Source of the DNA: Magnetospirillum sulfuroxidans
GTDB taxonomy: Bacteria > Pseudomonadota > Alphaproteobacteria > Rhodospirillales > Magnetospirillaceae
Reading direction: 5' to 3'
Length of the DNA: 64,000 nt
Assembly (NCBI RefSeq): GCF_018224925.1
Contig: NZ_JAGTUF010000008.1
Coordinates: forward strand, 62,001-126,000
The notes under the pieces are model-generated. The model did no database searches. It worked only from the letters and a program-made list of their open reading frames with translations, and was not told where the DNA came from. This document shows, one piece after another, positions 4,772-31,584 of the stretch; the first letter of the stretch is position 1; every line of letters starts with the position of its first letter. The position numbers and the translations under genes are program-made.

Positions 4772-7700
4772 TTAGCTCAGATCGAGCCCCACCACAGTGA
4801 TCCGCTCCCCCCGGCCACGGGCTTCGAGCAAGCGCTTGGCCTCCTGTTGCAGGCGGAGGCACAAGGCGGGGAAATCAAGATGCGGTTCGCCCGGTGGGAT
4901 CCATAAACGGGTGGCATTGACAGTGGCAAGGAAGTAGATGCCGTACCTTGAACGGTTCGACCTCATGTACTGGCCGATCAACTGTGTTTCCAGGGCTTCA
5001 AGCAATGTCGAGTAGGACCAATGCTCTTTATGTGCCCATTTGACCTCGAGAGTTACGGGATCAAGGCCAGGATAGCGAAGACGGAGGTCTGGTCTATCGG
5101 CGAAGAGAACCTCTGATTCGCGCTCAACCGTGTAGAATTTACGACTGGTTAGTTCGAGTTGACGGGCTAGCCATACCTGCAAAACTCGTTCGTGGTCGTA
5201 ACTGCCGAATGTACCCCGTAATGAGAAATCACCGTTTTCAGCGTCCTCGACGATGTCTTCCAGCCGCCAACAGACGATGTCGAACAATTCATCGGCGGTC
5301 GTCGGGGGTTTGGTGAAGCGCTGGGCGAAGTCCGCGACGTCCCTGACCGTCCAGTTACGCTCGGCTTCCCTCTTGGCGCGCTCGTTGGCAAGGTGGAGGA
5401 GACGGTCACGTTGGCACACGAAGACGGGATTCGCCGCGAGGTCGCGGAGTTCTTCGCTGGTCGCCTTGTCGATCAACAGGTTGAAAAGGCTGTCCCGCAA
5501 TTGTTGCGCCCGGTCGCGCGCGGTCGGCGAATAGGCCTTTCCGTCGGAGCGGTTGATGTCGTCGCCATATCGCACATGCCGGTTAAGCCGGGTGACAAAG
5601 GGGCGAAGGACGGAAGGTGCGTGGATGGACGGTCGGTGGGTGTCCGGCGGTCCTTCCATACGGTCCAGGAACGCCGCTGCAAGGGCCACCACCAGATCGT
5701 CCGCCTGCCCAGGATGCGCCGCTAGCGTCGCTTCCAGGAAGGCGAGGGCGGGTTTGGCGTCGGTCAGGAACCACATCACCAGCCAGGTCAGGAATTGCGG
5801 TTGCCCAAAGGAATGCGTGGGGCCGTAATGGGCGGCCAAAGCGGCGAGGGCGGCGGTATCCCCATCCCGGTACAGGGTGGCCACGGCATCGGCTAGAACT
5901 TTGGGATGCGCTGGTTCCGCGTTGGATAGCGCAGCCAGCAGTCCGGGGCCGCACAGAGCACGGGCCGCGCCGTCGTCCTCCCACAGCAGAGCGGAAATCA
6001 ACTCGCTGACATGCTGGACTTCGGCGGGAACTTGGAATTCGGCGCCAATCTGCCGGGCAAAGATTGTCCGCGCCGTCTGTGGGTGATGGGCAATCAAGGT
6101 GGGAAGCCATGATGGGAGGCCATTCAGCTCGTGCAAGGCGAGCCGGGCGGCAATCTCGGCGTGCTCGGGCGACAACGCGGCGAGGTCCAGGCCATCATCA
6201 ACGTCCAGCTTCAGCCCCAACAGGCTGACCTCGGCGGGCTTGTATCCAGTGTTCAGTTCTGGCGGCGGCGGTTGCCACCGTCGCCAATGGTTCTTGAAGC
6301 CCCGCCGGGCGATGGCCCTGATCATTCGCCCGAAAGTCTTCGCCATTGGTTCGAGAGTTTGATCTTCCCATTGATGGATGGTGCGGCTCTCGTCCTCGGA
6401 AAAGTGTAGGAGATTGTAGAGCGTCGCCCAATCTTCCCCGCGCATCAGACGGCGGAAACTCGTCACGCAATGCCAAGCGATGGTGGCGCGAATTCGGGCG
6501 GTCTGAAGCCGGTGACGTAGGACGTAGAAACTTGGCCGATCCTCGCGCCACCGCTGACGCCATCGTTCGGCCTGCTGCTTCAACCGCACGAGCGGGTTGT
6601 CCATGCATGACCAATAGGTGCGCCATAAAATCGGCCGGGCGATTGCGACAGACATGATCCTTGCTCGCACAGCAAGTCGACGACCGTGTTGTTGCCAAAG
6701 CTCGATGGCAAGTCTCAGAGCCAACCGGCGGTCGGCTGGCTCCAAAGTGGTGGTTGCCCGTTGCAGGAGCCAGGGGATGTCGCGGTTGGCCAAGTGCCAA
6801 AGGCCACAGTGGTATCCCGAAATGGCGAAGGTCCGGATGCGGTCGTCCGGCCCTTTTTCGCGCAATGCTGCGATCTGGCGGTCGGTAAGGGCTTGTATGA
6901 CCGTGGGGTGCGGCTCGAGCGCCGCCTGAAGGTCCTTGCCCTCTCCTCGAATGTCGCCCTGGAAATTTTTCAGGCGATCGACCAGTTCCGCTACATATTC
7001 GGGTGGACGCTCGACCAAGTCATGGGTTCCAAGCAGCCGATAGATTGCGGCTAGAAGCGGCCGGGCCGTCCAGCCGAAGGCGCGGGAAATGCGGTTGAGG
7101 CTTTGCCCTCGGCCTTCGTCCACCCACGGGGCGGAGAACGTCAAGGAAAACAACATGTCGGTTAGCGCCGGCAGGCGGTCCTCGGCCACGGAGGTTACGA
7201 CATCCTCGCAGGCGTGCGCCATGCGCCGTCCGCCGCTCCCTTCGACGTCTGTTCGCGCCAGCAAATTGCCTACATCATCCTCGCTCATGGTATTCGGATA
7301 CAGGAATTTGACGATCGTCGATGCCAGCGTGCTGGGGATGGTCGGCCCGTTCGTCAATTGGATCGCCAGGGCGGCGAGCCGGCGGCGGTCATCCATGGCG
7401 TGCAGGGCGGCAATGGCGTCATGGCGCAGATGCCATGGTTGATGACTGTCGGCGGCGATCATCAGGCACATGCGACCGCAGTCCCTCAGCCGCCCCTGCT
7501 GAACCAGGATCAGCAGCATCAGTTTGACGTCGGGGGCGACATCCGCACCACGCAGCAGCCGGTTAATCGTGGGCGCCAGCGTAGGATCTGCCAGACGGCC
7601 GAGTTGTTCTCGGTCTTCGGTATTTCGGAGGCGGTTGGTTTCGGCGATGCGCTGGAGTAACTGGATGCGCACTGGCGGGGGCAACAGGCTGGGGTCACCA

Positions 7701-9010
7701 AACCGTATGAGGATGTCGGGATCGACTTCCAGCAGTCGGGTTCTCACCTCCTTAATCCATCCTGCCAGCCAGCCGGCCACCGGTGCCAGGGACGTTGGCA
7801 CCACAGTGCTGCTGCTGGAGGTAGGGAAGAGTAGGCGCAAGATCTCGGCACGCGGGCAATTATAATCATCCACTAAACGTAGGAGCCATCGTGCTGACAG
7901 GTAATCAACGGAGCCACGATGGTGGAAGCGGATGCGGCCATAGGTGGCCTCGTCGAACATCGCCCGGCTGAGTAACGCCTGCCTGTCCTTGTCTGTCCAG
8001 TCGGGCAGCGCTGCCTGGGAGTCGAGGGCGTCTGGTGGCGAACGTGTCTCCTCGTCAGGAATTGCAAAGGTGAACCGCCGCGTAAATGTGACACACGCTG
8101 CCAGTGCTTCGGCGCCCTCGCGTGCTCTGGACAGTTCAAGCGGAACAAGCTTGATCCATTGGCGATTGATGTCTGTGAGCTTGCGGTTAACGTCGAATTC
8201 CAGCAATTCACTTAGCGAGCCCAGTCGCTTGTGCTCTTCCCAATACCCAATCAAATTCTCGACATCGCGGGGACGGCGCGCGAACTCCCAGGCATGGGCT
8301 TGATTCACTGCGTTGAGGAAGGCGGACGGGTTGTCCATGCGCCGGGAGGCAAAACGGTGGACGCGCTCATTGTCCAGTGGTGCAATTTGGACGATACGCA
8401 ATGGAGCTCTTTTTTCGTCGTCTGAATTGGAGAAAGGGGAGGGACCCAGCAGGTGCAGGACCATTTGTAGATCGGATAAGGGCTGCCATTCGCTGACACG
8501 ACAGGAAAGGACGATGGAAGAGTGGAGGAGTTTCGATTTCCTAATGTTCGCTGATTTGTTTATCGATGAAATATGGTGCTGATAATCTCCAATATGGTGG
8601 GTGAATTTCCTAAGTGCTCTTTCGAAGGCGTGATGGTCGATCAACTGCGCTTCGTCCTTGGCATCTAGCAGAAATATTCCGTGACCAAGCCTTGGCTGCC
8701 AATCCGCATACCTATTTCGATCTTTGGGGGCTAAGGCGCCTTCAAGGCCCCCCTCACCCAAAGCGTCGATCCGTACGAAGAAGGCATGCTTGCCTGCCCG
8801 CACCAGCCGCTCGGCCTGCGCCTCCATTTCCCACGTCTTGCCACTGCCAGCCTCGCCCAGCAGCACCACGCGTCCATGGGCGATCAGATCGTCCCACGTA
8901 AGGTTGCCATTGGCGTGAGTGACATAGCTGTCGAGGGCTACCTCCTCAGAGCCTGCGTCCAGTTGACAATCCAAAAACCTGCGGTCGAGATCAATGTGGG
9001 ATTTACGCAT
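4772..9010 (-). CDS. NACHT-type NTPase with a putative C-terminal PD-(D/E)xK nuclease
   Basis: A protein of about 1412 residues. Walker A is GEAGSGKT (52-59). Walker B is IFLLDAKDEA (112-121), the D-x-x-D-E form typical of NACHT/STAND ATPases. A sensor-like LSCRVSEW lies near 168-175. The middle is a long, Leu/Ala-rich, HEAT-like helical region without other motifs. The C-terminal 110 residues hold D1308 in DRPDLR and E1322-V-K1324 in LEVKWA, followed by a helix and a YGIYFLATV strand, which fits a restriction-endonuclease fold. By analogy with bacterial NACHT and Avs proteins I infer an antiphage sensor-effector, with the repeat region sensing and the nuclease acting. The start is ATG 9010; a TTG at 9046 would add 12 residues. 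It has no close partner gene except the XRE regulator upstream. Confidence 0.72.
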   Translation of the reverse strand: MRKSHIDLDRRFLDCQLDAGSEEVALDSYVTHANGNLTWDDLIAHGRVVLLGEAGSGKTWEMEAQAERLVRAGKHAFFVRIDALGEGGLEGALAPKDRNRYADWQPRLGHGIFLLDAKDEAQLIDHHAFERALRKFTHHIGDYQHHISSINKSANIRKSKLLHSSIVLSCRVSEWQPLSDLQMVLHLLGPSPFSNSDDEKRAPLRIVQIAPLDNERVHRFASRRMDNPSAFLNAVNQAHAWEFARRPRDVENLIGYWEEHKRLGSLSELLEFDVNRKLTDINRQWIKLVPLELSRAREGAEALAACVTFTRRFTFAIPDEETRSPPDALDSQAALPDWTDKDRQALLSRAMFDEATYGRIRFHHRGSVDYLSARWLLRLVDDYNCPRAEILRLLFPTSSSSTVVPTSLAPVAGWLAGWIKEVRTRLLEVDPDILIRFGDPSLLPPPVRIQLLQRIAETNRLRNTEDREQLGRLADPTLAPTINRLLRGADVAPDVKLMLLILVQQGRLRDCGRMCLMIAADSHQPWHLRHDAIAALHAMDDRRRLAALAIQLTNGPTIPSTLASTIVKFLYPNTMSEDDVGNLLARTDVEGSGGRRMAHACEDVVTSVAEDRLPALTDMLFSLTFSAPWVDEGRGQSLNRISRAFGWTARPLLAAIYRLLGTHDLVERPPEYVAELVDRLKNFQGDIRGEGKDLQAALEPHPTVIQALTDRQIAALREKGPDDRIRTFAISGYHCGLWHLANRDIPWLLQRATTTLEPADRRLALRLAIELWQQHGRRLAVRARIMSVAIARPILWRTYWSCMDNPLVRLKQQAERWRQRWREDRPSFYVLRHRLQTARIRATIAWHCVTSFRRLMRGEDWATLYNLLHFSEDESRTIHQWEDQTLEPMAKTFGRMIRAIARRGFKNHWRRWQPPPPELNTGYKPAEVSLLGLKLDVDDGLDLAALSPEHAEIAARLALHELNGLPSWLPTLIAHHPQTARTIFARQIGAEFQVPAEVQHVSELISALLWEDDGAARALCGPGLLAALSNAEPAHPKVLADAVATLYRDGDTAALAALAAHYGPTHSFGQPQFLTWLVMWFLTDAKPALAFLEATLAAHPGQADDLVVALAAAFLDRMEGPPDTHRPSIHAPSVLRPFVTRLNRHVRYGDDINRSDGKAYSPTARDRAQQLRDSLFNLLIDKATSEELRDLAANPVFVCQRDRLLHLANERAKREAERNWTVRDVADFAQRFTKPPTTADELFDIVCWRLEDIVEDAENGDFSLRGTFGSYDHERVLQVWLARQLELTSRKFYTVERESEVLFADRPDLRLRYPGLDPVTLEVKWAHKEHWSYSTLLEALETQLIGQYMRSNRSRYGIYFLATVNATRLWIPPGEPHLDFPALCLRLQQEAKRLLEARGRGERITVVGLDLS

Positions 9011-9261
9011 GAAGGGTAGTATGGCAGTTGGTCGTGGATGAGCCAATTAGGCAATCAGTGAAACGCTGTATAGTTGTCATTACACATAACTCGCAGGTCA
9101 CGCCTTGCTGTTATGGCGGGAGCCCGTTCAGTAACTCACCTCAGGTCTACAGCCTGAAGCCCTCAATGACATCACAGTGTTTGTCTCTCTGCCGCCTCAG
9201 GGCGAGTCAGGAAGTATTTTGACCGATCTCACTGGGAAGATCTGTGCCGCTAATTTCGTGA

Positions 9262-9474
9262 TCAGCTCTCGATCTCCAACAGCCTTGATGCGGATACTTC
9301 CAACGCATCCGCTATCTGCTGAAGAACGATCACTGTCGGATTCCTTTTTCCGCGCTCCACACCGCTGACATAAGTCCGATGGAGCCCTGAACGGAAAGCA
9401 AGCTCTTCCTGCGACCAGGCCTTTTCAAGCCTAATCCTCTTCACATTCCGACCAAGGTTCGAGCAGATATCCAC
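9262..9474 (-). CDS. small XRE-family regulator, restriction-controller (C protein) like
   Basis: A 70-residue protein that is almost entirely one HTH_3 domain (IRLEKAWSQEELAFRSGLHRTYVSGVERGKRNPTVIVLQQIADAL). Size and sequence style (SQEELA...GLHRTYVS.VERG.RNP) resemble C proteins of restriction-modification systems. Two GACT-N3-(A/G)GTC boxes (9497-9522) lie directly upstream, so it probably regulates itself and the divergent gene at 9538. It is transcribed towards the NACHT gene, 251 bases away. No restriction enzyme or methylase gene is in the window. Confidence 0.8.
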   Translation of the reverse strand: MDICSNLGRNVKRIRLEKAWSQEELAFRSGLHRTYVSGVERGKRNPTVIVLQQIADALEVSASRLLEIES

Positions 9475-9496
9475 CTTGCAAGCAAGGCGGTATGAC

Positions 9497-9522
9497 GACT
9501 ATAGGTCTACAGACTATGAGTC
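9497..9522. promoter_or_regulatory. tandem C-box-like operators
   Basis: GACTATAGGTC (9497-9507), spacer TACA, then GACTATGAGTC (9512-9522). The second is a perfect GACT-N3-AGTC palindrome. Two such boxes separated by four bases is the organisation of controller-protein operators in restriction-modification systems. They lie between the divergent XRE gene and the 9538 gene. A near copy occurs at 10755. Confidence 0.6.
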
Positions 9523-9537
9523 ACATGGGGGTCAGCC

Positions 9538-10074
9538 ATGAAGGTGCTTCACCAACAAACGCCTTTTTCGGTCATCCAATTCCAGGGACGTATCGAAGCA
9601 ATTAAAGTGGCACGCCAGTTCAGCGACGGAACTCATATTGCGTACCTACGCATCAATGAGGAGGGTGAGGGAGTGAACGTGCTGCAAAATATTTCCGTTG
9701 GGAACTCAGTCGGAAGTTATTTAAAAGAGGGTGAAAAATGCACTCTGTATGCAATTGCCTGGGATGGACGCGGGCACTTCCTTTACGCAGCCGAGACGCA
9801 AGGCCGTCAAGTCTATGATCGCGATGAACTGGAGCGATTTCGGAGGTCGCTGATTCGTCAAGTCGCGCTGACGTGGGGTTCCGTTGCGCTATTTGGGGTG
9901 CTAATGACGCTTTTAGTGCTTTTCCTATATTTTGGTATTCCGCTTGCCATTTGGGCTGGGTGGAAACTTAGACAAGGATTGCGAAGAGCTCGGTTTCCGC
10001 TAAATGAGATGCATAATGTGTTGATTGGACAAGGTTGGAAGCTTGATGCCTCCCGTTCGATCAACGTGTCTTAA
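9538..10074 (+). CDS. unknown membrane protein, divergent from the XRE regulator
   Basis: A 178-residue protein I do not recognise. The first ~105 residues are soluble and beta-rich. A strong hydrophobic segment follows (about 112-140, VALFGVLMTLLVLFLYFGIPLAIWAGW in two pieces), then a basic tail (KLRQGLRRARFP). Thus a soluble domain is anchored by one or two membrane helices. The start ATG follows GGGGGTCAGCC. The controller-like operators overlap its promoter region, so it is probably under control of the XRE protein. Codon and base use are AT-richer than the core genome. Confidence 0.6.
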   Translation: MKVLHQQTPFSVIQFQGRIEAIKVARQFSDGTHIAYLRINEEGEGVNVLQNISVGNSVGSYLKEGEKCTLYAIAWDGRGHFLYAAETQGRQVYDRDELERFRRSLIRQVALTWGSVALFGVLMTLLVLFLYFGIPLAIWAGWKLRQGLRRARFPLNEMHNVLIGQGWKLDASRSINVS

Positions 10075-10122
10075 TGTTACTATCGGCCTCTCTTTCTGGA
10101 CGGTTAATCTTGAGGGTATTTT

Positions 10123-10410
10123 ATGAGGCGCTTGCCAAACAGTACTGACAACTTGGTCTTAGGCACGGTTAACGCGCCCTGGAAGCGCGCCATTGATGCT
10201 GAGACCCTGGCGACACAAATCAAAGAGGGGAAAACTGATGAGTGGCTGTGTCACATAGCGACCTTCTTCACGGAAGTCAGTCCATCTCTCATCGATGATT
10301 TTGCGGAAGCCCACTCTATAGACCAGGAAAAACTTATGGTTACCTACAAAAAAATTAAAGAGGAAACCGGAGATAATAGTCTATACATGGATAAGTTATT
10401 AAATGGATAG
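10123..10410 (+). CDS. unknown small protein
   Basis: A 95-residue, acidic, probably helical protein (ETLATQIKEGKTDEWLCHIATFF...EKLMVTYKKIKEETGDNSL). It starts 49 bases after the membrane protein and is probably co-transcribed with it. No recognised domain. It converges on the gene at 10466. AT-rich composition suggests foreign origin. Confidence 0.5.
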   Translation: MRRLPNSTDNLVLGTVNAPWKRAIDAETLATQIKEGKTDEWLCHIATFFTEVSPSLIDDFAEAHSIDQEKLMVTYKKIKEETGDNSLYMDKLLNG

Positions 10411-10465
10411 TATCATTTTTCAATTAAATCCATTGTTTCATTGATGTATTATTAAAATAATGGAC

Positions 10466-10723
10466 CTACTTTAATGCGGAATCTGCGTCCAGCTTTTCAA
10501 TTCGAATGAGAATTGATTTCATTGCTTCTGCGATTCCTGGGATACAATTCATTGATGTTCCAGGCTTGGACATCGAAAATAGAACCAAGCTAAGGGCGCC
10601 GCATAAATGTGCGGCTGTTGCCTTAAGGTCTTCAGGATACTCCTGACTGACCAAAAGATGCGTCGAGCGAGCGATTTGCGCCGACAAATTAAGATCCACA
10701 GAAAGCTGATCTTCAATGTCCAT
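10466..10723 (-). CDS. unknown small helical protein with a controller box upstream
   Basis: An 85-residue protein (MDIEDQLSVDLNLSAQIARS...) that looks all-helical and matches no family I recognise. Its ATG lies 32 bases from a GACT-N3-CGTC box at 10755 that shares 17 of 18 positions with the operator at 9511-9528. This makes it a possible member of the same small regulon. Confidence 0.5.
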   Translation of the reverse strand: MDIEDQLSVDLNLSAQIARSTHLLVSQEYPEDLKATAAHLCGALSLVLFSMSKPGTSMNCIPGIAEAMKSILIRIEKLDADSALK

Positions 10724-10754
10724 GTTAACGCGCTCGTCGGCCGGCCCAAATGTA

Positions 10755-10765
10755 GACTATGCGTC
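10755..10765. promoter_or_regulatory. third C-box-like site
   Basis: GACTATGCGTC, embedded in AGACTATGCGTCACATGG. The operator at 9511-9528 reads AGACTATGAGTCACATGG. The extended identity beyond the palindrome suggests a true duplicated regulatory site in front of the 10723 gene. Confidence 0.5.
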
Positions 10766-11537
10766 ACATGGAAAGTCGTCAATCCATTGTGTTGCACTCG
10801 CTCGTCAGCGAAGTGAGTCGGCGCTGGCCGTGCCGTCTTGAACTTGGCAGCCGTCCGCGCTCTGGCTCAGAACGAAGACCATTTGCGCGTTCGTGAACTT
10901 CGCTGCCTTCATCTCTGACCATCTTTTCCTGGCCGAGAAATCTGGGCCGAAAACGCCAACTCAAAACGTGTGAAAATCACCAAAAGATCGGATTCTGCAA
11001 TCAATTATTGGACTCGATCAGCCAAAAATCGGATTCGTCCCATCCGTTGTCCAGGTGTCCGGGAGTTGTCGTGGCGCGGAACGAACGACGGCGTTGACGT
11101 CAGACACTGGAGGAGATTTTCCAAGGCAGGTCAGAGGGGGTGACGGACCAGCTGCCAGTTGCCAGCAGCCACAGACTCTTCAAGGACGCTCATATACAGA
11201 GGGAGTGGGGCGATCTCTGTATCTGTAAGATTTGAGGAGGGGAACGGTGAAGGGATGGCGTCCATGATGGGCCTCAGCTAGTGGCTCTTCCATCATCGAT
11301 CCGCAAATTAGATGGGCGTAAGGATCTCAGCGGGGCGCGGGTTCACTTTTTGCTTGCGCCGTGCAGTGGCATTTATATCCTACTGGCGCCGCCATTGGGC
11401 GGTTGGGGTGACGCCCAACCTGGCGCCTTCATCGGGTAAATTCGTCAAGTAGTATCAGATCTCCTTTACCCTCCAGGCCGCGGTGAGTATGGCGCCGCTC
11501 ACACTACGTGGACCTGGGCACGGGTGGAGTCTGTCCC
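10766..11537. other. 770-base stretch without a convincing gene
   Basis: No reading frame here looks like a protein. It holds two imperfect short repeats (CCAAAAGATCGGATTC near 10979 and CCAAAAATCGGATTC near 11020), a lone IS3 terminal repeat (11106-11133) and otherwise undistinguished sequence leading into the gene at 11538. It looks like a scar of past IS activity. Confidence 0.5.
11106..11133. repeat. solo IS3 terminal inverted repeat
   Basis: ACTGGAGGAGATTTTCCAAG followed by GCAGGTCA matches the right end of IS3 copy 1 (4636-4663) and is the inverted complement of the left ends at 869 and 19349. No transposase sequence accompanies it, so it is a footprint of a deleted element. Confidence 0.7.
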
Positions 11538-12872: not shown

Positions 12873-13004
12873 CTTAGCTCCGTCATGATCCAGTCAGTCT
12901 ATGCTGGTTTAGCCCTTAGCATTCTCGGGGCCCAGGCAGAGGTGGCCCCGGAAATTCGGACAAGGTGTTAAGCTATCGCCCATTACGTGCAAGGACGTTT
13001 GAGA

Positions 13005-13292
13005 ATGGGCAAAGTTACGAGGAAGCGGTACACGGCTGACTTCAAGGCGAAGGTTGCGCTTGAAGCGATCAAGGGCGACCTGACGCTGGCGGAATTGTCC
13101 AGCAAGCACGGCATCCACCAGACGATGATCGCGGCGTGGAAGCGTCAGGCGATCGAAGGCATGGCCGGAACGTTCTCCGGCAAGGCGGAGGCTGCGCAGG
13201 TCTCGCGCGAGGACGAGATTTCCAGATTGCATGCAAAGATCGGCCAATTGCTGGTGGAGCGGGATTTTTTGGCGAAGGCCTCCGGTCGATGA
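13005..13292 (+). CDS. IS3-family transposase OrfA
   Basis: A 95-residue HTH_Tnp_1 protein (KRYTADFKAKVALEAIKGDLT...LAELSSKHGIHQTMIAAWK) followed by a leucine-zipper-like helix (EDEISRLHAKIGQLLVERDFL). It is complete. Its stop overlaps the orfB start (CGATGAGTG), and a run of six T (13265-13270) could serve frameshifting. Confidence 0.85.
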   Translation: MGKVTRKRYTADFKAKVALEAIKGDLTLAELSSKHGIHQTMIAAWKRQAIEGMAGTFSGKAEAAQVSREDEISRLHAKIGQLLVERDFLAKASGR

Positions 13293-14068
13293 GTGTCGAG
13301 CGGAGGCGGCAAAAGATCGATCCGGATCATCCCGATCTGCCGGTGAGGCGGCAATGTGCGCTGATTTCGCTCAGCCGGTCGGTGTTCTATTACCGCCCTC
13401 GGGGCGAGAGCGGCTTCACCCTGGAGCTGATGCGGCGGATCGACGAGACCTTCACCGAGCATCCCTATTTCGGAGCGCGGCAGATGATGTTTCATCTGCG
13501 CCGCCAGGGACACATAGCTGGGCGCAAGCGGGTGGCGCGTCTGATGGCGCTGATGGGCTTGTCGCCCATCTATCAGAAGCCCCGGACCAGCGATCCCCAT
13601 CCCCAGCACCCGGTCTATCCGTACCTGCTGAAGGACCTGGCGATCACCCGGCCCAACCAGGTGTGGTGCGCCGACATCACCTATATCCCCATGCGCAAGG
13701 GCTTCCTGTATCTGGTGGCGGTGATGGACTGGGCCACCCGCAAGGTGCTGGCCTGGAAGCTGTCAAACACCATGGAGGCCGATTTCTGCATCGAGGTGTT
13801 GCAAGACGCCCTGGCCCGGTTTGCTCCGCCGGAGATTTTCAACACCGACCAGGGCAGCCAGTTTACCAGCCCACGTTTCACCCAGGTGCTGAAGGACGCC
13901 AAGGTGCGCATCAGCATGGACGGGCGCGGCCGCTGGATGGACAACGTCTTCATCGAGCGCCTAGCTTTGGCTGGACGCACACCCGACGAGGCGTATCATC
14001 AAACCGCGCCAACACCCTGTCCGGCGCATGCCCCGGACAGGGTGTTGATCAGCGCACTGGCGGCATGA
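13289..14068 (+). pseudogene. IS3-family OrfB with an internal deletion
   Basis: The HTH_21 and rve parts are present (LMRRIDETFTEHPYFGARQM, CADITYIPMRKG with the first Asp, NTDQGSQFTSP with the second Asp, DNVFIERL with the Glu). After FIERL the protein jumps directly to ALAGRTPDEAY, which normally lies about 45 codons further on, so the segment after the catalytic Glu is missing. The frame stays open by chance to 14068, through the arms of a hairpin. It is probably inactive. Confidence 0.75.
14010..14047. repeat. perfect 15-bp inverted repeat at the IS3 3' end
   Basis: CAACACCCTGTCCGG, an 8-base loop, then CCGGACAGGGTGTTG. It sits inside the aberrant tail of the deleted OrfB. It could be a terminator lacking a T run or a recombination scar. 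Confidence 0.6.
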
Positions 14069-14301: not shown

Positions 14302-14414
14302 ATTCCCCGACGAGGTGTCGCGGATTCATTGACACGTTGTGCTTGCGAGAGATGAGAGCTATCACTACTCTAACAGCCCTGTTTGTCAAGGAATCGCCGT
14401 GCGGCGTGTAGAAA

Positions 14415-15635
14415 ATGGATGACGAGGCACTCATGGAAATTGACGAAATAATACTTGGGTTAGATGACGTGCTTCGTGGCAACATTACGGCCGATTTGCT
14501 TCGCAACGCTGTGGAGGATGGTAGTGCTGTTTTAATTCGCGGTCGAGAAAGGTCAGTGGCAGTTGGTAGCAGCCTTCCTGTTAAGATCAATACCAACATT
14601 GGGATATCTGATAAATCAGACCCTAACGTCGAAGTGGAAAAATTAAAGCTATTAAGTAGTTTTTCATTTCGCCCCGACTTGATGATGGATCATACTATCG
14701 ATCGGGAGCACCGCGATTTTTGGAAGACTATGGTCCGTCATTTTGATGGGCCTGTTGGAACTCTTCCTCACTACACTATATATAGCCCACAACATGGCAT
14801 AGAAAAATCTGCGCTGATCGATAGGATCACAGAAATGCTAGAGGGCGGTGTAGCGTTTATGACGCTACATTTCACGTCAGATCCAGACATTTATGATGTT
14901 GCTCGCAAGACCAGACCAATACCCGTCACTTCTCGCGGCGGCGGCTTAGTCGTGAGAGACATGTTGAGGTCTGGCAGAAATGAAAATGTTTTTCGGGCAG
15001 CAATTGCTGATATTGCATCCGTATTTCGAAAATTTGATGCCACGATAAGCGTAGGAACGACGTACCGCCCGCCCGACATTTTTTCCGCGCTCGATGAAGC
15101 CCACACGCTCGAAACAAAAAGGCAGGTGCAGATTGTCAGGGAACTCAGAGAGGCAGGAGTAAGTGTGATTATGGAAGGTGTTGGTCATGTGCAATTGACC
15201 GACATACCAAGGTATATAGCAATTGCTTCTAAGGCCAAATGCCCGTTTATGCCGCTTGGTCCAACGACAACAGACAGCGCAATTGGCTTCGATCATGTGG
15301 TCAACGCAATAGGGGGTGTCACAATGGCACTTGCCGGGGGTGCGCACATTCTGAATTCAATCACTCGAGAAGAGCACACAGGTGGTGTCCCAAGCTTAGA
15401 ATCTGTGGTTGAAGGACTCAAGGCAGCTAAAGTTGCGGCACATTCGGTCAATGTGACTAGATTTGAGCGCATTAAAGCATTCGACAGGATGACTATAGAA
15501 CAAAGAGGCAAGCAAGTCAGTTGTGTCGTGGCGGGCGGATTGTTCAACGAGCGTGTTGACGATCCGAGAAAGGGCTGCAATCGCTGTAGCTTTGAATGCC
15601 CAATTGTTCTCGCACCCGCGTCACCGATTCACTAG
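14415..15635 (+). CDS. divergent ThiC-like radical SAM protein
   Basis: A 406-residue protein. ThiC makes hydroxymethylpyrimidine phosphate from aminoimidazole ribotide. ThiC landmarks, in order: KINTNIGIS (57-65), DGPVGTLPHYTIY (111-123), SRGGGL (173-178), VSVIMEGVGHVQ (249-260, the His of GPGHVP kept), CPFMPLGPTTTDSAIGFDH (276-294), REEHTGGVP (318-326) and VAAHSVNV. Differences from true ThiC: GDGLRPG has become GTTYRPP (214-220), TIHAGV has become TLHFTS, and the C-terminal cluster motif is C388-x2-C391-x3-C395 rather than Cx2Cx4C. The protein is shorter than ThiC, so a different substrate is likely (compare BzaF, a ThiC relative). No TPP riboswitch is seen upstream. A second start at 14433 has a better GAGG site. 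First gene of an AT-richer cluster. Confidence 0.75.
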   Translation: MDDEALMEIDEIILGLDDVLRGNITADLLRNAVEDGSAVLIRGRERSVAVGSSLPVKINTNIGISDKSDPNVEVEKLKLLSSFSFRPDLMMDHTIDREHRDFWKTMVRHFDGPVGTLPHYTIYSPQHGIEKSALIDRITEMLEGGVAFMTLHFTSDPDIYDVARKTRPIPVTSRGGGLVVRDMLRSGRNENVFRAAIADIASVFRKFDATISVGTTYRPPDIFSALDEAHTLETKRQVQIVRELREAGVSVIMEGVGHVQLTDIPRYIAIASKAKCPFMPLGPTTTDSAIGFDHVVNAIGGVTMALAGGAHILNSITREEHTGGVPSLESVVEGLKAAKVAAHSVNVTRFERIKAFDRMTIEQRGKQVSCVVAGGLFNERVDDPRKGCNRCSFECPIVLAPASPIH

Positions 15636-15646
15636 AGGCCGCATAA

Positions 15647-16783
15647 ATGGACATCTACTTTCCGACAAAGATCCACTTTGCCGACGATGCAGTTGAGAAG
15701 GTCGTTGGAGACATTTCCGAGAACTTCTCGTCTTGTCTGGTTATTACAGGTGGAGCGAGAACCCGAGGATCAAGTGTTTTCGTAGAAGCGCTACGTTCTC
15801 TGCGTACCAGACTGTCAAGTGTGCTTGTCATAGAGGGCATACATTCAAATCCACGCGAAGGAGAAATAATTCAGGCGGCGAAAGATGCCAGACAAAATAG
15901 GCCCGCATGCATTCTGAGCATAGGCGCTGGAAGCGTCCACGACGCTGCGAAGATTGTATCCGTGCTAATCAATGAGGACTTTTCAATTGAAGAATTAACA
16001 GTCGAGCGACAGGGATATAATAAGATCAAAAACAGAAATGTTCCGTTGTTCTGTATGCCGTCGATGGTTGGGACTGGAACAGAGATTTCCCCTGCAAGTC
16101 TAGTTCGTATTGGTCACCAAAAAAGGATTATATTCAGTCCGCATTTGTATCCTAAGGCAGCATATTATTCATTTAAGCATATCGGAAGTTCCGATATCGA
16201 GCTAGATGTACTAACGGCATTTGACTCCTTTGCTCAATCACTGGAAGCATTAACTTCGCAAAAGGCCAATTTGTGGGCGGAAATGTACGCCTTGGCTGGT
16301 ATCAAGAATTCTCTTGAGGGGATAAAAAGGCTCTCTGTTTCGGGCAGCAGTCCATCGGTATGGAAACAGCTTTCTCACGCTAGTGCCCAAAGTTTGCTTG
16401 CCGTAGCGAACTCTTCGGTTGGAGCAATTCATGCATTATCTGACCCATTGAGTGGAATTTACGACATTCACCATGGTCGCGCATTGGCGCTTGTTGCTCC
16501 CAAGGTTCTATTAGCTAACTATGAGGAGTGTGCTGAGCGCTATCACGTAGTCGAAGAACTCATTAGTGAGATACTCAACCTACCGAAATCAATGAAGCTT
16601 CCTGAAGCGGTTGAAGCGTTCCTCGATGGTGTTGCCCCTAACCGCAAAGTCGGAATTCCTGAAATTGATTTGTCGGATCAGGGAATGGCTAGGTTGATAG
16701 CAGAATCACGGAATCCAGATATGGAAGGGGCGCCAAAATTGCTTACCGACAATGAGATAGAGTCAGTATTTCGCAGCATGTAG
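15647..16783 (+). CDS. iron-containing alcohol dehydrogenase-like protein with an altered metal site
   Basis: A 378-residue Fe-ADH/dehydroquinate-synthase-fold protein. The NAD-binding motif is GAGSVHDAAK (about 88-97), and MPSMVGTGTEISPASLV matches the family. Of the four usual metal ligands the Asp is present (TAFDSFAQSLEA), the His four residues later is Gln, the next His is present (AIHALSDPLSG) and the last is present (DIHHGRALAL). The catalytic His of HxxAH is Asp. It may therefore have lost iron or changed chemistry. It starts 11 bases after the ThiC-like gene, so the two are surely co-transcribed. Its natural substrate cannot be read from sequence. Confidence 0.75.
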   Translation: MDIYFPTKIHFADDAVEKVVGDISENFSSCLVITGGARTRGSSVFVEALRSLRTRLSSVLVIEGIHSNPREGEIIQAAKDARQNRPACILSIGAGSVHDAAKIVSVLINEDFSIEELTVERQGYNKIKNRNVPLFCMPSMVGTGTEISPASLVRIGHQKRIIFSPHLYPKAAYYSFKHIGSSDIELDVLTAFDSFAQSLEALTSQKANLWAEMYALAGIKNSLEGIKRLSVSGSSPSVWKQLSHASAQSLLAVANSSVGAIHALSDPLSGIYDIHHGRALALVAPKVLLANYEECAERYHVVEELISEILNLPKSMKLPEAVEAFLDGVAPNRKVGIPEIDLSDQGMARLIAESRNPDMEGAPKLLTDNEIESVFRSM

Positions 16784-16912
16784 TTGTGGGTTAGATAGCG
16801 GGACCCCAAATCGAGTTGTCGTGTTTGTGGAGGGGCTTGATTAGGTGAGCAGCCCACAGGTGGTTTGAATACCATGCGCGAGTAAGCTCCGCATGATGTG
16901 AGGTGGGCAGCT

Positions 16913-18340
16913 ATGGATCAGTCAAGAATTTTCGGCATCAAGAGTTTGATTGAAAGTTCCTTAGGGTCTGCGCGTAGTATTCTTTCGACAAGTCAACAGG
17001 AATTCCATTTTCCGGGTGGCGACAAAGGCGTTCTTTGGCCATTATTTCTTACACCGGCCTCAATTGGGCCCAACGAAGCTTATGAGATTGACACTTGCGC
17101 CACATCTTTGGGCTTCATTGGGTTGCGTCAGAGCCTGCCTATTGCGGAAAGTGGAGATCCGCGCCTTGCGCAAAGTCCCCTGTCCACGCTTATTGGTCTT
17201 CGGAAGGCCGACGGTTCTTGGCCATCAATTCAATTGGCGCCTCGACTCGGCCGAGCCGATGAGATGGAGGGAATCGTCAATGACACAATATACGCGCTCA
17301 CAGCGTTGCTGGATGGCGGATTTCTTGAGAAAGAAATTTCTCCTAGATGGCCAGTTGTCTCAACCTCTTTCGAAAACCTCAATACATATCGAGCTCGTAT
17401 TGATTGGCTGTCACAAACGGTATCTTGGATTAAGTCCAATCGTCTGGACAGGGGTTGGTACTTCACCAGTTCCGACTATATGGCCGACAAAGCACAGTAT
17501 ATACCTGCCACGGGCCCAACGGCAGCCATGGTACTAGCAATTGATAGATTTCTAAAGGCAATTGCCGGTGACGAGGAATGCCCATATCGAGCAATTTTAG
17601 AAAAGCTAAAGCTAGACGGCATTGCATGGCTGAAGGAAATCCAACACGAAAGTGGCGGCTTTGGTCGCGACGGTCAGGATGTTCCGCGCATCGGCCATAC
17701 AGCTTGGGCGCTTCGAGTTCTATTGCTTTCAAATGATCAGGACACTGAGTTTGCAGCGATACGATCGGTGGATTGGCTATTAAAGAACGTTAAATCAAAA
17801 CAGCTTGGGCGAGCTAGCGAACAGGATGCCTTCGACAGATATGCGCAAGCGATCTTCACTAGGAATGAGATATTCAGGAAGAGAATAATCGCCCATGAGC
17901 ACCCTTTAGAAGCAACAGTACTAATAGCACTGTGTGAGGTGTACCAACACCGCGGCAGGCTTTCGCTTAGTACTGGAAGGCGCAAAGTGGTGTCGAAAGC
18001 TATTTTTAGTCTCACAAAACAATTGGTTGGACGTCAGCAAAAAGATGGACCTTTGCGAGGGGCTTTTCGCAGTAGACGCAACTCGCTCGGAGAAGAATAT
18101 CCGCTTTACTGGATTGCTCATTCCGTGCTGGCGCTTAGCCAAGTCCGGGATCTTGTTCTAGGTGGTCAAATTTCAGCATCACAAAATTTCTTTAATAGTT
18201 TTATTTTAAGAACGCTATTTGTTGCGTTTGCAATCGGCGTTTTTATTGCAATCAAAGGATTTGACTATCGAGAGTTGGCAATACTTCTAATTCTCGGAGT
18301 GGCAGTCAATGTCATCTCTATCTTTCTAACGAGGGAATGA
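16913..18340 (+). CDS. membrane-anchored terpene-cyclase/prenyltransferase-like alpha barrel
   Basis: A 475-residue protein; the start ATG has GAGGTGGG 5 bases upstream. Repeats typical of the squalene-hopene cyclase/prenyltransferase toroid are visible: LRKADGSWPS (about 98-107), HESGGFGRDG...IGHTAWALRVLL (about 245-270) and QQKDGPLRGAF...YPLYWIAHSVLAL (near 375-405). I see no DxDD protonation motif of squalene-hopene cyclases, so cyclase activity is doubtful. Two C-terminal membrane helices (ILRTLFVAFAIGVFIAI and ELAILLILGVAVNVISIFL) anchor it. It lies 130 bases after the ADH-like gene and overlaps the kinase gene by four bases. Alternatives are a polysaccharide- or peptide-acting toroid. 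Confidence 0.6.
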   Translation: MDQSRIFGIKSLIESSLGSARSILSTSQQEFHFPGGDKGVLWPLFLTPASIGPNEAYEIDTCATSLGFIGLRQSLPIAESGDPRLAQSPLSTLIGLRKADGSWPSIQLAPRLGRADEMEGIVNDTIYALTALLDGGFLEKEISPRWPVVSTSFENLNTYRARIDWLSQTVSWIKSNRLDRGWYFTSSDYMADKAQYIPATGPTAAMVLAIDRFLKAIAGDEECPYRAILEKLKLDGIAWLKEIQHESGGFGRDGQDVPRIGHTAWALRVLLLSNDQDTEFAAIRSVDWLLKNVKSKQLGRASEQDAFDRYAQAIFTRNEIFRKRIIAHEHPLEATVLIALCEVYQHRGRLSLSTGRRKVVSKAIFSLTKQLVGRQQKDGPLRGAFRSRRNSLGEEYPLYWIAHSVLALSQVRDLVLGGQISASQNFFNSFILRTLFVAFAIGVFIAIKGFDYRELAILLILGVAVNVISIFLTRE

Positions 18341-18936
18341 TGTTTTGGTCTGAACACAAGTTCATCGTGATTGAGGGAATTGATGGTGTTGGCAAGTCAA
18401 CAGTATGCAGAATGGTACAGAGTCTCATTCTAAAACAGGGAGGTTTGTGCGAGTTGTTGTATGGTGTACCAGAACCATATATTGAAATTGCCATGAAAGT
18501 GCCGCAAGTCAAGAGCGTATACAGTCGATATAATTTTTATCATGCAAGCAACCTCGCAACAGCAGACAAGGTGAGGGATATCCTGCACTATTCAAATGTG
18601 GTGCTTGATCGCTACTGTTACTCTACGTTTGCATACCACCGTGCGCGAGGCGCAAACATACCACCTCCGGTATTCACAGATAGCGGCCTTCTGAAGCCAC
18701 ACTTGAGTGTTTTATTAAAGGTGGGTGATGAAGCAATACGCCAAGATAGAATTGAACATAGAGATCAGGAAAAGTCTCTCGACGATCAAGAGAAAAATGG
18801 AGCCGGCTCATTTATTGATGAGCTGGAGAAATTATTTGGTCTATTGAGTATGGTCGAGGTAGATAATTCTGCAGACGATCCCGGCATTGCGGCACAAAGG
18901 ATACTGAATACATTATCGGATAGCGACGGTCGGTGA
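18337..18936 (+). CDS. thymidylate-kinase-like P-loop kinase
   Basis: A 199-residue protein. The P-loop GIDGVGKST (about 14-22) is preceded by the family's FIVIEG strand. VVLDRYCYSTFAYH matches the DR(Y/F)xxS nucleotide-binding motif of dTMP kinases, and RQDRIEHRDQEKSLDDQ is in the LID position. It overlaps the alpha-barrel gene (ATGATG at 18337). dTMP kinase itself is a housekeeping enzyme, so this low-GC paralogue more likely phosphorylates a nucleotide-like or pyrimidine product made by the cluster. That link is inference. Confidence 0.75.
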   Translation: MMFWSEHKFIVIEGIDGVGKSTVCRMVQSLILKQGGLCELLYGVPEPYIEIAMKVPQVKSVYSRYNFYHASNLATADKVRDILHYSNVVLDRYCYSTFAYHRARGANIPPPVFTDSGLLKPHLSVLLKVGDEAIRQDRIEHRDQEKSLDDQEKNGAGSFIDELEKLFGLLSMVEVDNSADDPGIAAQRILNTLSDSDGR

Positions 18937-18956: not shown

Positions 18957-19348
18957 TCAATAACTAGGCAGGTCACGGAGTGACTCTTCTAAACCCTTGC
19001 GCAATGGATCGTCGAGCAGGTGGGCGTAGCGCTGGGTGGTCTGAACCTGTGTGTGGCCCAGAAGCTTGCCGATCATCGGCAGCGTCATGCCACCCGAAAC
19101 GAGCAGCGACGCGAAGGTATGGCGCAGATCATGGATGCGGACGGCGGGCAGATCGGCCTTCGCCCGGACATCTTCCCAGAACCGCTTGATGTCCTGAAGC
19201 GGCTTGCCTTCGGCATCGCCGGGAAATACCCATTCGCAATCTTCGGGCACGAGCAGCCGGATCGTGCGCAGCAAGGCGGCGGCGGAAGTGCTGATCGGCG
19301 CGCGATGCAGGCGGCGCTGCTTCGTGGTGGCGGCGGGCTTGATCCAGA
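18957..19348 (-). pseudogene. tyrosine recombinase (phage-type integrase), C-terminal fragment
   Basis: The catalytic C-terminal part only: RIHDLRHTFASLLVSGG (H-x-x-R), LLGHTQVQTTQRYAHL (with the nucleophile Tyr) and DDPLRKGLEESL to the end. The N-terminal DNA-binding domains and probably the first catalytic Arg are missing, because IS3 copy 2 begins at 19349. Its position at the edge of the ThiC-like cluster suggests that the cluster arrived on an integrative element that can no longer excise by itself. Confidence 0.8.
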
Positions 19349-19418
19349 TGACCTGCCCTGGAAGTTTCATCCAGTCGTAAGTAGAGCCTTGGGCGAAGTT
19401 ACGCCGTGTGGCGCGGTC

Positions 19419-19426
19419 TGAGCAAT
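19419..19426. repeat. 8-bp target duplication of IS66, left copy
   Basis: TGAGCAAT, repeated at 22503-22510. The same site occurs once, unoccupied, in IS3 copy 1 at about 940-947, so the duplication is proven inside the window. Confidence 0.92.
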
Positions 19427-19537
19427 GTATCCGTCCGGTGAAGGCCGCTGAAGCTGGCCTTGCCGGCCCCGTTTGGGGCTGCCAGCCTTGGTGATGGTGC
19501 AAGCATTGTGGTTTGCACCGATGCCAAGGGCGAGGCG

Positions 19538-29496: not shown

Positions 29497-31584
29497 TCAC
29501 GATGGGGTAAATTCTTCATCACCGGGGGGTAACAAGAAGGTGGCGATGATCTCGCCCAGCTTGCCCAGGGCCACCGGCTTCTTCAAAACGGCGCAGCGGT
29601 CGTCTTGCAGATTTTCCGCCAGTCTTTCCGTCGCCCCCAGATGGCCGGTGACGATGACGATGGGTTGCAGCGGGTCATATTCGCGCAATTGTTCCACCAA
29701 TTGTTCGCCGCCGCCCGAAGGCATGCGCAAATCGGTGATGACCACATCGGCGGGGTCGGCCTTGAAACGGGCCAGGGCTTCGGAGCCGCAACCGCACAAG
29801 GTGACCCGGTATCCCATTTCGGTCAGATAGCGGCCCAGCGTCTCCACTGCTGTCTTTTCGTCATCGACGACCATGATATGGGCATCAATGGGGCAGAGCT
29901 GCGGGCTTGGCGCGACGATCGTTTCCGGCTCGGCCGTATCGTCGGTGGGCAGGGAAATGACGAAGCAGGCGCCTTTGGCGCTGCTTTCCAGCTCCAGTCG
30001 CCCGCCCATGGCATTGATGATGCCGAAACTGACCGATAATCCCAATCCGGTGCCGCGACCGGCTTCCTTGGTGGTGAAAAACGGCTCGAAGATGCGGGCG
30101 CGGACGGCGGCGGGCACGCCTGGACCATTGTCGGTCACCCGGATGATCAGCCGGTCGGCGGTGCGGCGGCCGGTGACCGTGATTTCGGCCGGCCAACCAT
30201 TGCCTTCGCGCTCGCGCTTTTCCTTCAGCGCATGATGGGCGTTGGACAGCAGGTTCATCACCACTTGCTCAAGTTGGACGCGCCGTCCGCGGACCGGAAT
30301 GGCGTTGCCGGGCAGGTGGGTGATCAAGGTGATTTCGTCGGGGCGCAACTGGCCTTCCAGGACAGCCATGGCCGATTTGGTCGCCGCCACGGCATCGAAA
30401 ACCTGAACCGGAGAATTGTCGCGGCGCGAGAAAATACGGATGTCGTCGATGATCTCGGCCGTGCGTTGCGATTGTTCGGCCACCAACTGGAATTGTTGCG
30501 CCTGCCATTCCGGGGTGGCCTTGCCGCGTTCAATGAACAGCAAAGCCCCTTCGGCGGTCAGCCGGATGATGTTCAGCGGCTGTGACAATTCATGCACCAG
30601 CCCGGCGGCCATTTCCCCCAAGGTGGCCAGCTTGGCCGTCTGCACCAGCTGTTCTTGCACCTCAAGCCGATCGGAAACGTCGCGGATCACCAACAGGCGG
30701 GCCGGTCGACCATGAAAGGTGATGGTGGTGCCGACCACTTCGGCATCAAAGACGCTGCCGTCCAAGCGGATCATCTTGTGTTCGGCCCGGACTTTGCCCG
30801 GCGGCGGCTGGGCAAAGCGCTGGACGATGTCCGGTTGTTCTGCTGCGGGGATCAGGGTCAGGATGGAATTGCCGATCAGTTCCGGCAGGCCGGCGCCAAA
30901 GACCTGATTTGCCGCCGGATTGGCAAACATCACCTCACCCATGGAATGGACCAAGATGGCGTCCGGAGTCAGTTCGATCAGCGAACGGTAGCGTTCCTCG
31001 CTTTCGGCCAATTCGCGCACGGCCCGATCATGTTCGACGCGCATGCGCAGCGTGCCGATGCCATAGCTGAGATTCCGGGCCAAATCCTCCAGCAGGCGGA
31101 CGATGTCGGCATCGAAGGCATCGGGTTCTCCGGCATAGATGACCAAGGCGCCGATGCGCTCGGCGACCTGAGACAAGGGCAAGGCGATGCACGAGCGGAA
31201 ACCGTGCTTCTTGATCACATCGCGCCAGGGGGCGAAGCGGGAATCGGTTTGGGTGTCGGCGGTGATCTGGGTGAGGCCGGTGCGGATAGCGCTGCCGATC
31301 GGGCCTTGACCCAAGCAATCTTCCCCCCAAGAGACCTTGATCTCGTCAAGATAGCTGGCCCCCCTGCCAGACACCGCCACCGGCAGGATTGACCGATCGT
31401 CGTCGGATTGGGCATAGCCAACCCAGGCGAGCTTGAAACCGGCCACCTCGACGGCAATGCGACAGATGTGTTCCAACAAGGTGGTTTCGTCGGTCGCTCT
31501 GAGCAATGCCTCGGTCGAGCGGGTCAGGGTGGTGACGGCGCGGTCGATCTGGCGCAATTGATCGGCGACGGAATGAGCGATCAT
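29497..31584 (-). CDS. soluble hybrid histidine kinase (GAF-PAS-HisKA-HATPase-receiver)
   Basis: A 695-residue protein without membrane helices. GAF domain (about 30-185, HICRIAVEVAGFKLAWVGYA...), PAS (about 195-310), HisKA with His in GLVHELSQPLNIIRL, HATPase (NLLSNAHHAL; DNGPGVP; GTGLGLSV) and a C-terminal receiver with Asp in VVITDLRMPSGGG and Lys in AVLKKPVAL. The sensor input is probably a small molecule or redox cofactor, but no diagnostic residue is visible. Upstream of and likely coupled to the LuxR-type regulator. Confidence 0.9.
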   Translation of the reverse strand: MIAHSVADQLRQIDRAVTTLTRSTEALLRATDETTLLEHICRIAVEVAGFKLAWVGYAQSDDDRSILPVAVSGRGASYLDEIKVSWGEDCLGQGPIGSAIRTGLTQITADTQTDSRFAPWRDVIKKHGFRSCIALPLSQVAERIGALVIYAGEPDAFDADIVRLLEDLARNLSYGIGTLRMRVEHDRAVRELAESEERYRSLIELTPDAILVHSMGEVMFANPAANQVFGAGLPELIGNSILTLIPAAEQPDIVQRFAQPPPGKVRAEHKMIRLDGSVFDAEVVGTTITFHGRPARLLVIRDVSDRLEVQEQLVQTAKLATLGEMAAGLVHELSQPLNIIRLTAEGALLFIERGKATPEWQAQQFQLVAEQSQRTAEIIDDIRIFSRRDNSPVQVFDAVAATKSAMAVLEGQLRPDEITLITHLPGNAIPVRGRRVQLEQVVMNLLSNAHHALKEKREREGNGWPAEITVTGRRTADRLIIRVTDNGPGVPAAVRARIFEPFFTTKEAGRGTGLGLSVSFGIINAMGGRLELESSAKGACFVISLPTDDTAEPETIVAPSPQLCPIDAHIMVVDDEKTAVETLGRYLTEMGYRVTLCGCGSEALARFKADPADVVITDLRMPSGGGEQLVEQLREYDPLQPIVIVTGHLGATERLAENLQDDRCAVLKKPVALGKLGEIIATFLLPPGDEEFTPS

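Follow-up and report, generated by a model that had tools for sequence, protein, structure and literature searches.

Gene organisation of the locus

We analysed a window of 64,000 nucleotides of Magnetospirillum sulfuroxidans (assembly GCF_018224925.1, contig NZ_JAGTUF010000008.1, positions 62,001 to 126,000), which contains a cluster of four genes headed by a divergent relative of ThiC. The four open reading frames (ORFs) are intact and all lie on the plus strand. Gene 1 (14415-15635; protein P0001, 406 aa) encodes a radical S-adenosylmethionine (SAM) enzyme of a divergent lineage of the ThiC superfamily, gene 2 (15647-16783; P0002, 378 aa) an oxidoreductase resembling the iron-dependent alcohol dehydrogenases (Fe-ADH), gene 3 (16913-18340 from an ATG, or from a GTG at 16898; P0003) a putative alpha/alpha-toroid protein with two predicted C-terminal membrane helices, and gene 4 (18337-18936; P0004, 199 aa) a nucleotide or phosphate kinase resembling the thymidine monophosphate (TMP) kinases. 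Gaps of 11 and 129 bases, the latter counted from the ATG at 16913, separate the first three genes, and genes 3 and 4 overlap by 4 bases. A GAGGTGG stretch just 5' of the gene 3 ATG fits that start.

A preliminary description of this DNA had reported four tightly spaced plus-strand genes of ThiC-, Fe-ADH- and TMP-kinase-like families (genes 1, 2 and 4), AT-richer than their surroundings and bordered by the debris of mobile elements, and these observations all held. The GC content of the cluster is 0.469, below that of all 502 other segments of the same length sampled across the window at 100-base steps (minimum 0.533, mean 0.612, standard deviation 0.024), and genes 1, 2 and 4 exceed their Pfam cut-offs. 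The borders lie outside the operon. Downstream is a C-terminal integrase fragment (18957-19502, minus strand) that matches PF00589 (7.9e-18, profile positions 49-169 of 172). Upstream, at about 12987-14068 on the plus strand, a reading of the ORFs suggests transposase remains, which we take to be of the IS3 type.

A second copy of the operon in Hoeflea

All four genes are found in identical order, with near-equal spacing and the 4-base overlap, on contig LADQ01000260.1 of Hoeflea sp. BRH_c9. By blastn, window positions 14343-18903 match this contig (our locus L014, 7175-11732) at 85.6% identity over 4563 columns, and no further match between the window and the Hoeflea contig was found outside this block. 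The proteins of genes 1 to 4 are 90.6, 86.2, 90.7 and 79.4% identical, and gene 3 of Hoeflea has the same ATG start with a GTG immediately before it. The ratios of non-synonymous to synonymous substitution (dN/dS), calculated with our own Nei-Gojobori script, are 0.089, 0.128, 0.091 and 0.194 for genes 1 to 4. All four proteins are therefore under selection to keep their sequence. Between genes 2 and 3 the two copies agree at 85 of 130 aligned columns, and no reading frame stays open in both.

Since the same four genes occur in the same order in Hoeflea, the cluster is a real, conserved and mobile operon. The horizontal acquisition proposed in the preliminary description is supported by the Hoeflea block, by flanks without shared DNA and by the results for gene 3 in other relatives given below. 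The common pathway proposed there is likewise supported, the four genes being conserved together in Hoeflea under purifying selection. The four genes do keep company elsewhere, but in that one other genome only.

The operon is rare in every collection searched. A 48-residue piece of gene 1 was used to scan a genome contig collection (84,980 species); 85 candidate stretches were returned and one was a true relative, that of Hoeflea sp. BRH_c9. More distant relatives were possibly missed, because a hit required one of six 8-residue tiles to match exactly. A search for gene 3 in 99 relatives found it in the own genome and in none of the 98 others. Gene 1 was found in one of 385 genomes of the class (E<=1e-50) and one of 398 genomes of the phylum (E<=1e-45), two overlapping samples in which the positive was in each case the own genome. 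Within the order of the Hoeflea genome (347 genomes) the gene 3 profile recovered that genome and one match in genome G1182 (E 5.6e-4), which was rejected as spurious: it lies on the strand opposite another ORF, presumably that of an isopropylmalate-type dehydrogenase.

Among 72,556 plasmids there was no match to gene 3. Gene 1 matched 378 records and gene 2 matched 791, all below 60% identity; the 60 listed of the 378 lie at 27-33% and are annotated as ThiC or BzaF or are unannotated. No relative was found in viral contigs with five single-protein or fragment queries from the cluster. A mixed-alignment query gave 6 viral loci at 27-32% identity, and the four with ORFs inspected are of ThiC or BzaF type. 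Ten phage records match gene 1, at 28-33% identity.

Gene 1 encodes a divergent ThiC-superfamily enzyme

P0001 matches PF01964 (ThiC_Rad_SAM) with 210 bits against a Pfam cut-off of 25. It falls below the three NCBIfam equivalog cut-offs for ThiC (208 of 410, 186 of 460 and 152 of 650 bits) and below that for BzaB (145 of 700 bits). An AlphaFold2 model built from a 6-row alignment, with a mean predicted local distance difference test score (pLDDT) of 70 and residues 285-292 and 351-406 below 50, matches 13 ThiC chains at E values of about 1e-22 to 1e-21, and the first hit after these has an E value of 5e-7.

In order to compare individual residues we aligned P0001 and its Hoeflea copy with 45 family members, leaving out a short viral locus (L013) and, of 46 members entered, L048, in which no segment passed the filter. 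The numbering of Arabidopsis ThiC (AtThiC) was transferred through a further alignment. There are 106 columns conserved in at least 43 of the 45 family rows, and 41 of these are changed in both cluster proteins. The catalytic Asp (AtThiC D383), which is D in 43 family rows and N in two, is T215 in P0001, and the catalytic Cys (C474 of Caulobacter ThiC, CcThiC), present in 45 of 45 rows, is N314. The Tyr adjoining this Cys is also lost, giving Asn-Ser for Cys-Tyr, and M279 replaces a Tyr that is found in 45 of 45 rows. The ribose-holding residues N61 (AtThiC N228) and E254 (AtThiC E422) are retained, as are M91, Y120, H152, S173-R174-G175, R218, H258, H321 and C388/C391/C395. H258 and H321 are presumably the metal-binding His residues. 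An unusual Fe-S motif was considered and rejected, the CX2CX3C spacing being common to the short ThiC and BzaF rows.

Mutants at the two catalytic positions are described in the available text of PMC11117688. AtThiC Asp383 is hydrogen-bonded to N3 of aminoimidazole ribonucleotide (AIR) and is believed to prime the heterocycle so that the ribose fragment can add back; the D383A protein consumed AIR and gave no hydroxymethylpyrimidine phosphate (HMP-P), only a four-carbon aldehyde fragment of the ribose. CcThiC Cys474 is proposed there for late hydrogen transfers leading to the loss of carbon monoxide (CO), and C474S gave neither HMP-P nor CO, but an aldehyde-bearing product. Set beside this portion of the published work, P0001, which carries both the T215 and the N314 change, probably does not form HMP-P, and an aldehyde phosphate is a possible product. 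Another nucleotide is possible as its substrate because 41 conserved columns are changed.

A gene 1 tree (quick method, SH-aLRT support only, no bootstrap) is unrooted and gives the cluster pair a long branch. With these limits, it separates the pair from a clade of 36 rows that includes the ThiC of the host itself (SH-aLRT 99); nine other rows, two BzaF-type and seven short ThiC proteins, stand on the same side as the pair. Without a root, and with the pair and the BzaF-type rows joined at their long branches, the tree is compatible with a sister relation to BzaF as well as with an origin among short ThiC. A grouping within ordinary ThiC, for which the preliminary description had allowed, is consequently disfavoured mainly by the residues and the scores.

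An additional ThiC of the ordinary kind (617 bits) is present in the own genome, directly behind a thiamin pyrophosphate (TPP) riboswitch (73 bits), and no TPP riboswitch was found in the window or in the Hoeflea locus L014. Such riboswitches are not present at all ThiC genes. Of the 70 phylum genomes examined, 60 carry a ThiC-family gene; two such genes were seen in the own genome alone. It is well supported that gene 1 is not an ordinary thiamin gene. A ThiC-family gene was found in 0 of 17 other genomes of the genus of the Hoeflea genome (G838). As a separate observation, this genus may depend on thiamin pyrimidine or thiamin from outside.

Genes 2 and 3

Gene 2 exceeds both Pfam cut-offs for Fe-ADH, with 96.1 bits against 31.3 for PF00465 and 60.9 against 27 for PF25137. 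The metal ligands of the Fe-ADH lactaldehyde reductase are Asp, His, His and His, and D193, H262 and H276 of gene 2 stand at the expected metal positions.

The gene 3 protein has two predicted C-terminal membrane helices, corresponding to hydrophobic stretches at 431-457 and 455-480 of the 480-aa form. Its similarity to toroid families is weak, local (about 60 residues) and below cut-off, both for Prenyltrans (E 0.006; 16.4 of 26.1 bits) and for SQHop_cyclase_C (E 0.005; 16.5 of 26.5 bits). An AlphaFold2 model from a two-sequence alignment was unusable (pLDDT 33.6), and the self-alignment score of 33 equals that of shuffles (mean 33.1; 89 of 200 as high). Comparison with 11 squalene-hopene cyclases by hhalign gave no match, the best sequence match in the PDB is only at E 0.89, and no DxDD motif was seen by eye. 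Six helix-like repeats were seen by eye and are a lead only. Of the membrane alpha barrel of the preliminary description, the membrane part is supported by the two C-terminal helices, while the barrel, for which the similarity stays below every threshold, is putative, and the toroid chemistry attached to it is speculative.

Gene 4 and its kinase relatives

P0004 matches Thymidylate_kin (PF02223) with 46.8 bits, over the Pfam cut-off of 27, and falls below the NCBIfam cut-off for dTMP kinase (53.8 of 83.25 bits). At E<1e-5 it has seven matches among plasmids, four of which adjoin viperin or other radical SAM genes: in three cyanobacterial records a viperin-annotated gene follows the kinase, and in one from Acinetobacter the kinase gene overlaps a radical SAM gene with a weak pVip match. 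The remaining three are Tmk of Enterococcus and Lactococcus, and the two inspected both stand before pyrF. Relaxing the threshold to E<0.01 gives 11 records. The four added comprise a kinase of Sphaerospermopsis that precedes a radical SAM gene, two unannotated records for which no radical SAM neighbour was found, and a third Lactococcus. Among 299 genomes there are nine matches outside the own genome at E<=0.001, and the neighbours of four were inspected; the two best adjoin radical SAM genes, one of them a viperin relative, and two weaker ones looked like ordinary Tmk loci.

In a kinase tree of 20 rows, all but the host's own Tmk recruited as relatives of P0004, the cluster kinases and seven radical-SAM partners separate from ten Tmk rows and one Neorhizobium row with support of 98/97, the host's own Tmk and five others of the ten being labelled by sequence alone. 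The split is kept (100/99) with either partner set left out and the Neorhizobium row also removed. This kinship to viperin partners points to an antiviral small molecule as a possible product, which goes beyond what the preliminary description had proposed.

The best PADLOC match of P0004 is PDC-M51B (75 bits), with 40.5 bits for VakA; five viperin-side kinases score 182-246 bits against the VakA model. Because ordinary Tmk proteins also match PDC-M51B and VakA, these scores show kinship at most, and membership of P0004 in either family was rejected after this control. Two further gene pairs were noted among the kinase relatives. On a plasmid of Acinetobacter sp. WCHA55 (L005 6143-8977) the kinase gene overlaps the weakly pVip-like radical SAM gene by 4 bases, and the pair adjoins genes annotated as AAA ATPase, PIN domain and 4Fe-4S proteins. 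In genome G669 (L090 4312-6134) a 415-aa radical SAM gene overlaps a PDC-M51B kinase (242 bits) by one base, and this pair is perhaps the candidate system PDC-M51.

Genomic surroundings

The Hoeflea contig (34 kb) carries a DRT6 reverse transcriptase (4e-129) about 4 kb from the operon, a Type ISP restriction-modification enzyme at 6 kb, and a weakly TmtA-like NOV_C protein together with a PDC-S08 5'-nucleotidase at 11-12 kb. A relaxase and two resolvase-type recombinases lie on the same contig, which reads as a mobile defence island, a single case. The 5'-nucleotidase (L020 7210-8169), of the candidate defence family PDC-S08, sits beside the NOV_C protein and the Type ISP enzyme. A segment of a gene with no Pfam match occurs on both sides of the Hoeflea operon, at about 6362-6874 and 12394-12908 of L014, as direct repeats that have diverged (72.7% over 520 columns).

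In the window, scans for promoters and terminators gave site numbers no higher than in shuffles, Rfam had no match, and PHROGs matches added nothing. Weak PADLOC matches at 29500-31584 fall on a response-regulator domain. A second AT-rich stretch at 9001-11000 (GC 0.507 and 0.458 per kb) contains small ORFs; two of these were scanned and neither has a family match. A 1424-aa ORF with a P-loop (GEAGSGKT) at 4772-9046 on the minus strand reads like a large NTPase and has no Pfam or PADLOC match at E<=0.01. On the host contig left of the window (L021 6126-11741) three adjacent minus-strand genes encode 266, 1143 and 489 aa, and the two larger match integrase families. The position of these integrase-family genes, close to the left edge of the window, makes the region look like an integrated island with its integration module there.

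Discussion

Our best explanation, which we hold tentatively, is that of a mobile four-gene operon for a small-molecule pathway started by a divergent ThiC-fold enzyme, with a role in defence or competition. P0001 would open the ribose of a ribonucleotide, AIR or similar, by radical chemistry. Two residues are missing from it, the Asp that supposedly allows ThiC to join the ribose fragment back onto the imidazole and the Cys proposed for the steps towards CO loss, so it may release a phosphorylated aldehyde or an aldehyde-bearing ring product instead of HMP-P. An aldehyde would fit the next gene, an alcohol/aldehyde oxidoreductase, and the Fe-ADH-like enzyme would reduce or oxidise it. The TMP-kinase-like enzyme would raise a monophosphate to a diphosphate and, in what is the most uncertain step, the membrane-anchored gene 3 protein may use the product or place it at the membrane. 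The neighbouring genes suggest a role in defence or competition, with a logic as in the prokaryotic viperins, where a radical SAM enzyme is combined with a kinase. Both the stepwise chemistry and the defence role are offered as hypotheses. The pyrimidine product and the lipid attachment envisaged in the preliminary description are speculative, and the two catalytic changes argue against the ordinary ThiC product.

Several results weigh against this explanation. The operon is known in two genomes only, so the evidence from defence neighbourhoods comes from a single case, that of Hoeflea. PADLOC assigned no convincing family to 11 window and 5 left-flank proteins, and P0001 has no PADLOC match at E<=1. 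The very long branch of P0001 and the changes in 41 of the 106 conserved columns mean that it may act on a substrate other than AIR. The available text of PMC11117688 states that AtThiC D383N partly rescued native activity, and the published mutants (D383A, D383N, C474S) differ from T215/N314, such that P0001 may have some HMP-P activity. No other ThiC was seen in the Hoeflea metagenome-assembled genome, the completeness of which is not stated. The fourth metal position of gene 2 is Q197 in the window copy and His in Hoeflea, and the toroid fold of gene 3 stays putative, below every threshold tried. For the kinases, an approximately unbiased test did not reject the alternative grouping (p=0.177), and three ordinary Tmk proteins score 50-58 bits against PDC-M51B and 26-41.5 bits against VakA.

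The same gene content could serve the synthesis of an antimetabolite, secreted or membrane-bound, for example an antagonist of the thiamin pathway or of nucleotides, that is used in bacterial competition and not in phage defence. Such an operon would suit a set of four genes that all look like enzyme genes, include one for a membrane-anchored protein and have neither sensor nor nuclease beside them, and it would suit the mobile, rare distribution; bacimethrin, an HMP-like antivitamin, is discussed in the available part of PMC11117688. However, the conserved block consists of four genes only and contains neither an exporter nor a gene for self-resistance, known defence genes lie close to the Hoeflea copy, and several of the nearest relatives of P0004 partner viperins or other radical SAM proteins. 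We consider this doubtful, and nevertheless the strongest of the alternatives. Viperin-like immunity on a ThiC fold, in which a radical SAM enzyme outside the classical superfamily would break a nucleotide ribose and its dehydrogenase, kinase and membrane partner would turn the fragment into an antiviral or growth-arresting compound, is the boldest reading compatible with the data, and an unlikely one.

The other explanations are far less probable. If gene 1 were still a ThiC producing the thiamin pyrimidine, whether ordinary or diverging, it would be useful to hosts without thiC such as Hoeflea, and the lack of another ThiC there and of any in the 17 other genomes of its genus therefore leaves this reading a small chance. 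The PF01964 match over cut-off, a place beside the short ThiC rows compatible with the unrooted tree and the part of its activity kept by AtThiC D383N (PMC11117688, available text) agree with it. What makes it improbable is that both catalytic residues are replaced in P0001, that D383A and C474S abolish HMP-P formation in the same text, that the NCBIfam ThiC scores fall far below their cut-offs, that neither the window nor L014 has a TPP riboswitch, and that the window host already has thiC. About as improbable is a BzaF- or BzaA/B-type enzyme making a benzimidazole lower ligand of cobamides. It would come from the same superfamily, a Trichlorobacter plasmid carrying BzaF shows that such enzymes can move, and a sister relation is compatible with the tree, where the cluster pair and the BzaF-type pair sit on long branches that join; but the BzaB model gives 145 bits against a cut-off of 700, the BzaF key-site pattern (S, K, N and a kept Cys) is not that of P0001, and none of the four genes of the block matches cobamide families. 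Least probable of all, and very much so, is that unrelated transferred genes came together by chance and have partly decayed. Insertion-sequence and integrase debris on both sides, and the Gln that only the window copy has at an Fe-ADH metal position, would be in keeping with decay, but Hoeflea has the same order, near-equal spacing and 4-base overlap, and dN/dS is 0.09-0.19 in all four genes.

ThiC chemistry is described in the abstract of PMC11117688 as the most complex enzyme-catalysed radical cascade identified to date, and a natural relative without two residues whose mutation halts this cascade part-way would be a natural experiment on its mechanism. If the dehydrogenase and the kinase use the product of P0001, the operon would make a new metabolite from a broken nucleotide. 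Should it protect against phage, the viperin principle would extend to a second enzyme family, and ThiC-fold immunity would mean that small-molecule immunity based on radical SAM enzymes arose a second time, independently.

Comparison with known systems

A literature search, with most subscription journals outside its coverage, gave no description of this gene combination among the papers listed, in agreement with the preliminary description, which knew of none. P0001 shares with ThiC (phosphomethylpyrimidine synthase) the fold, the Pfam family and the ribose-, metal- and Fe-S-binding residues. It differs in being only 25-32% identical to the members aligned, in having Thr for Asp, Asn-Ser for Cys-Tyr and Met for an invariant Tyr, and in lacking a TPP riboswitch. 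With BzaF (hydroxybenzimidazole synthase) it has in common the superfamily and a short CX2CX3C C-terminus, whereas the residues at N61, R174, T215, M279 and N314 differ from the BzaF pattern, taken from L006 (annotated BzaF) and L010 (BzaF-type by our own label), and the operon has no cobamide genes. Gene 3 has a weak, local likeness, below all cut-offs, to the toroids of squalene-hopene cyclases and protein prenyltransferases; in contrast to the squalene-hopene cyclases it has two predicted C-terminal membrane helices, no DxDD by eye and no profile match.

The kinase side leads to defence systems. Prokaryotic viperins make 3'-deoxy-3',4'-didehydro (ddh)-nucleotides that inhibit viral RNA polymerase, according to the available portion of a review (PMC12926258). 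Like pVip with VakA, the operon pairs a radical SAM gene with a TMP-kinase-like gene, the kinases are related, and the neighbourhood in Hoeflea is of a defence type. Unlike that system, its radical SAM enzyme is of the ThiC family and not a viperin, two extra genes are present, and the VakA score of P0004 is far below those of VakA kinases. For PDC-M51 the likeness is that the M51B kinase family provides the best PADLOC match of P0004 and that the M51B kinase of G669 overlaps a radical SAM gene, but P0004 scores 75 bits against 242 for the G669 kinase, with ordinary Tmk at 50-58. By the features tested, then, the operon is neither an ordinary ThiC nor, in scores and residues, a BzaB/BzaF, nor a viperin system. 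It nevertheless resembles parts of the ThiC and viperin systems, in that it would combine ThiC-type radical chemistry on a ribonucleotide with the pairing of a radical SAM enzyme and a nucleotide-type kinase.

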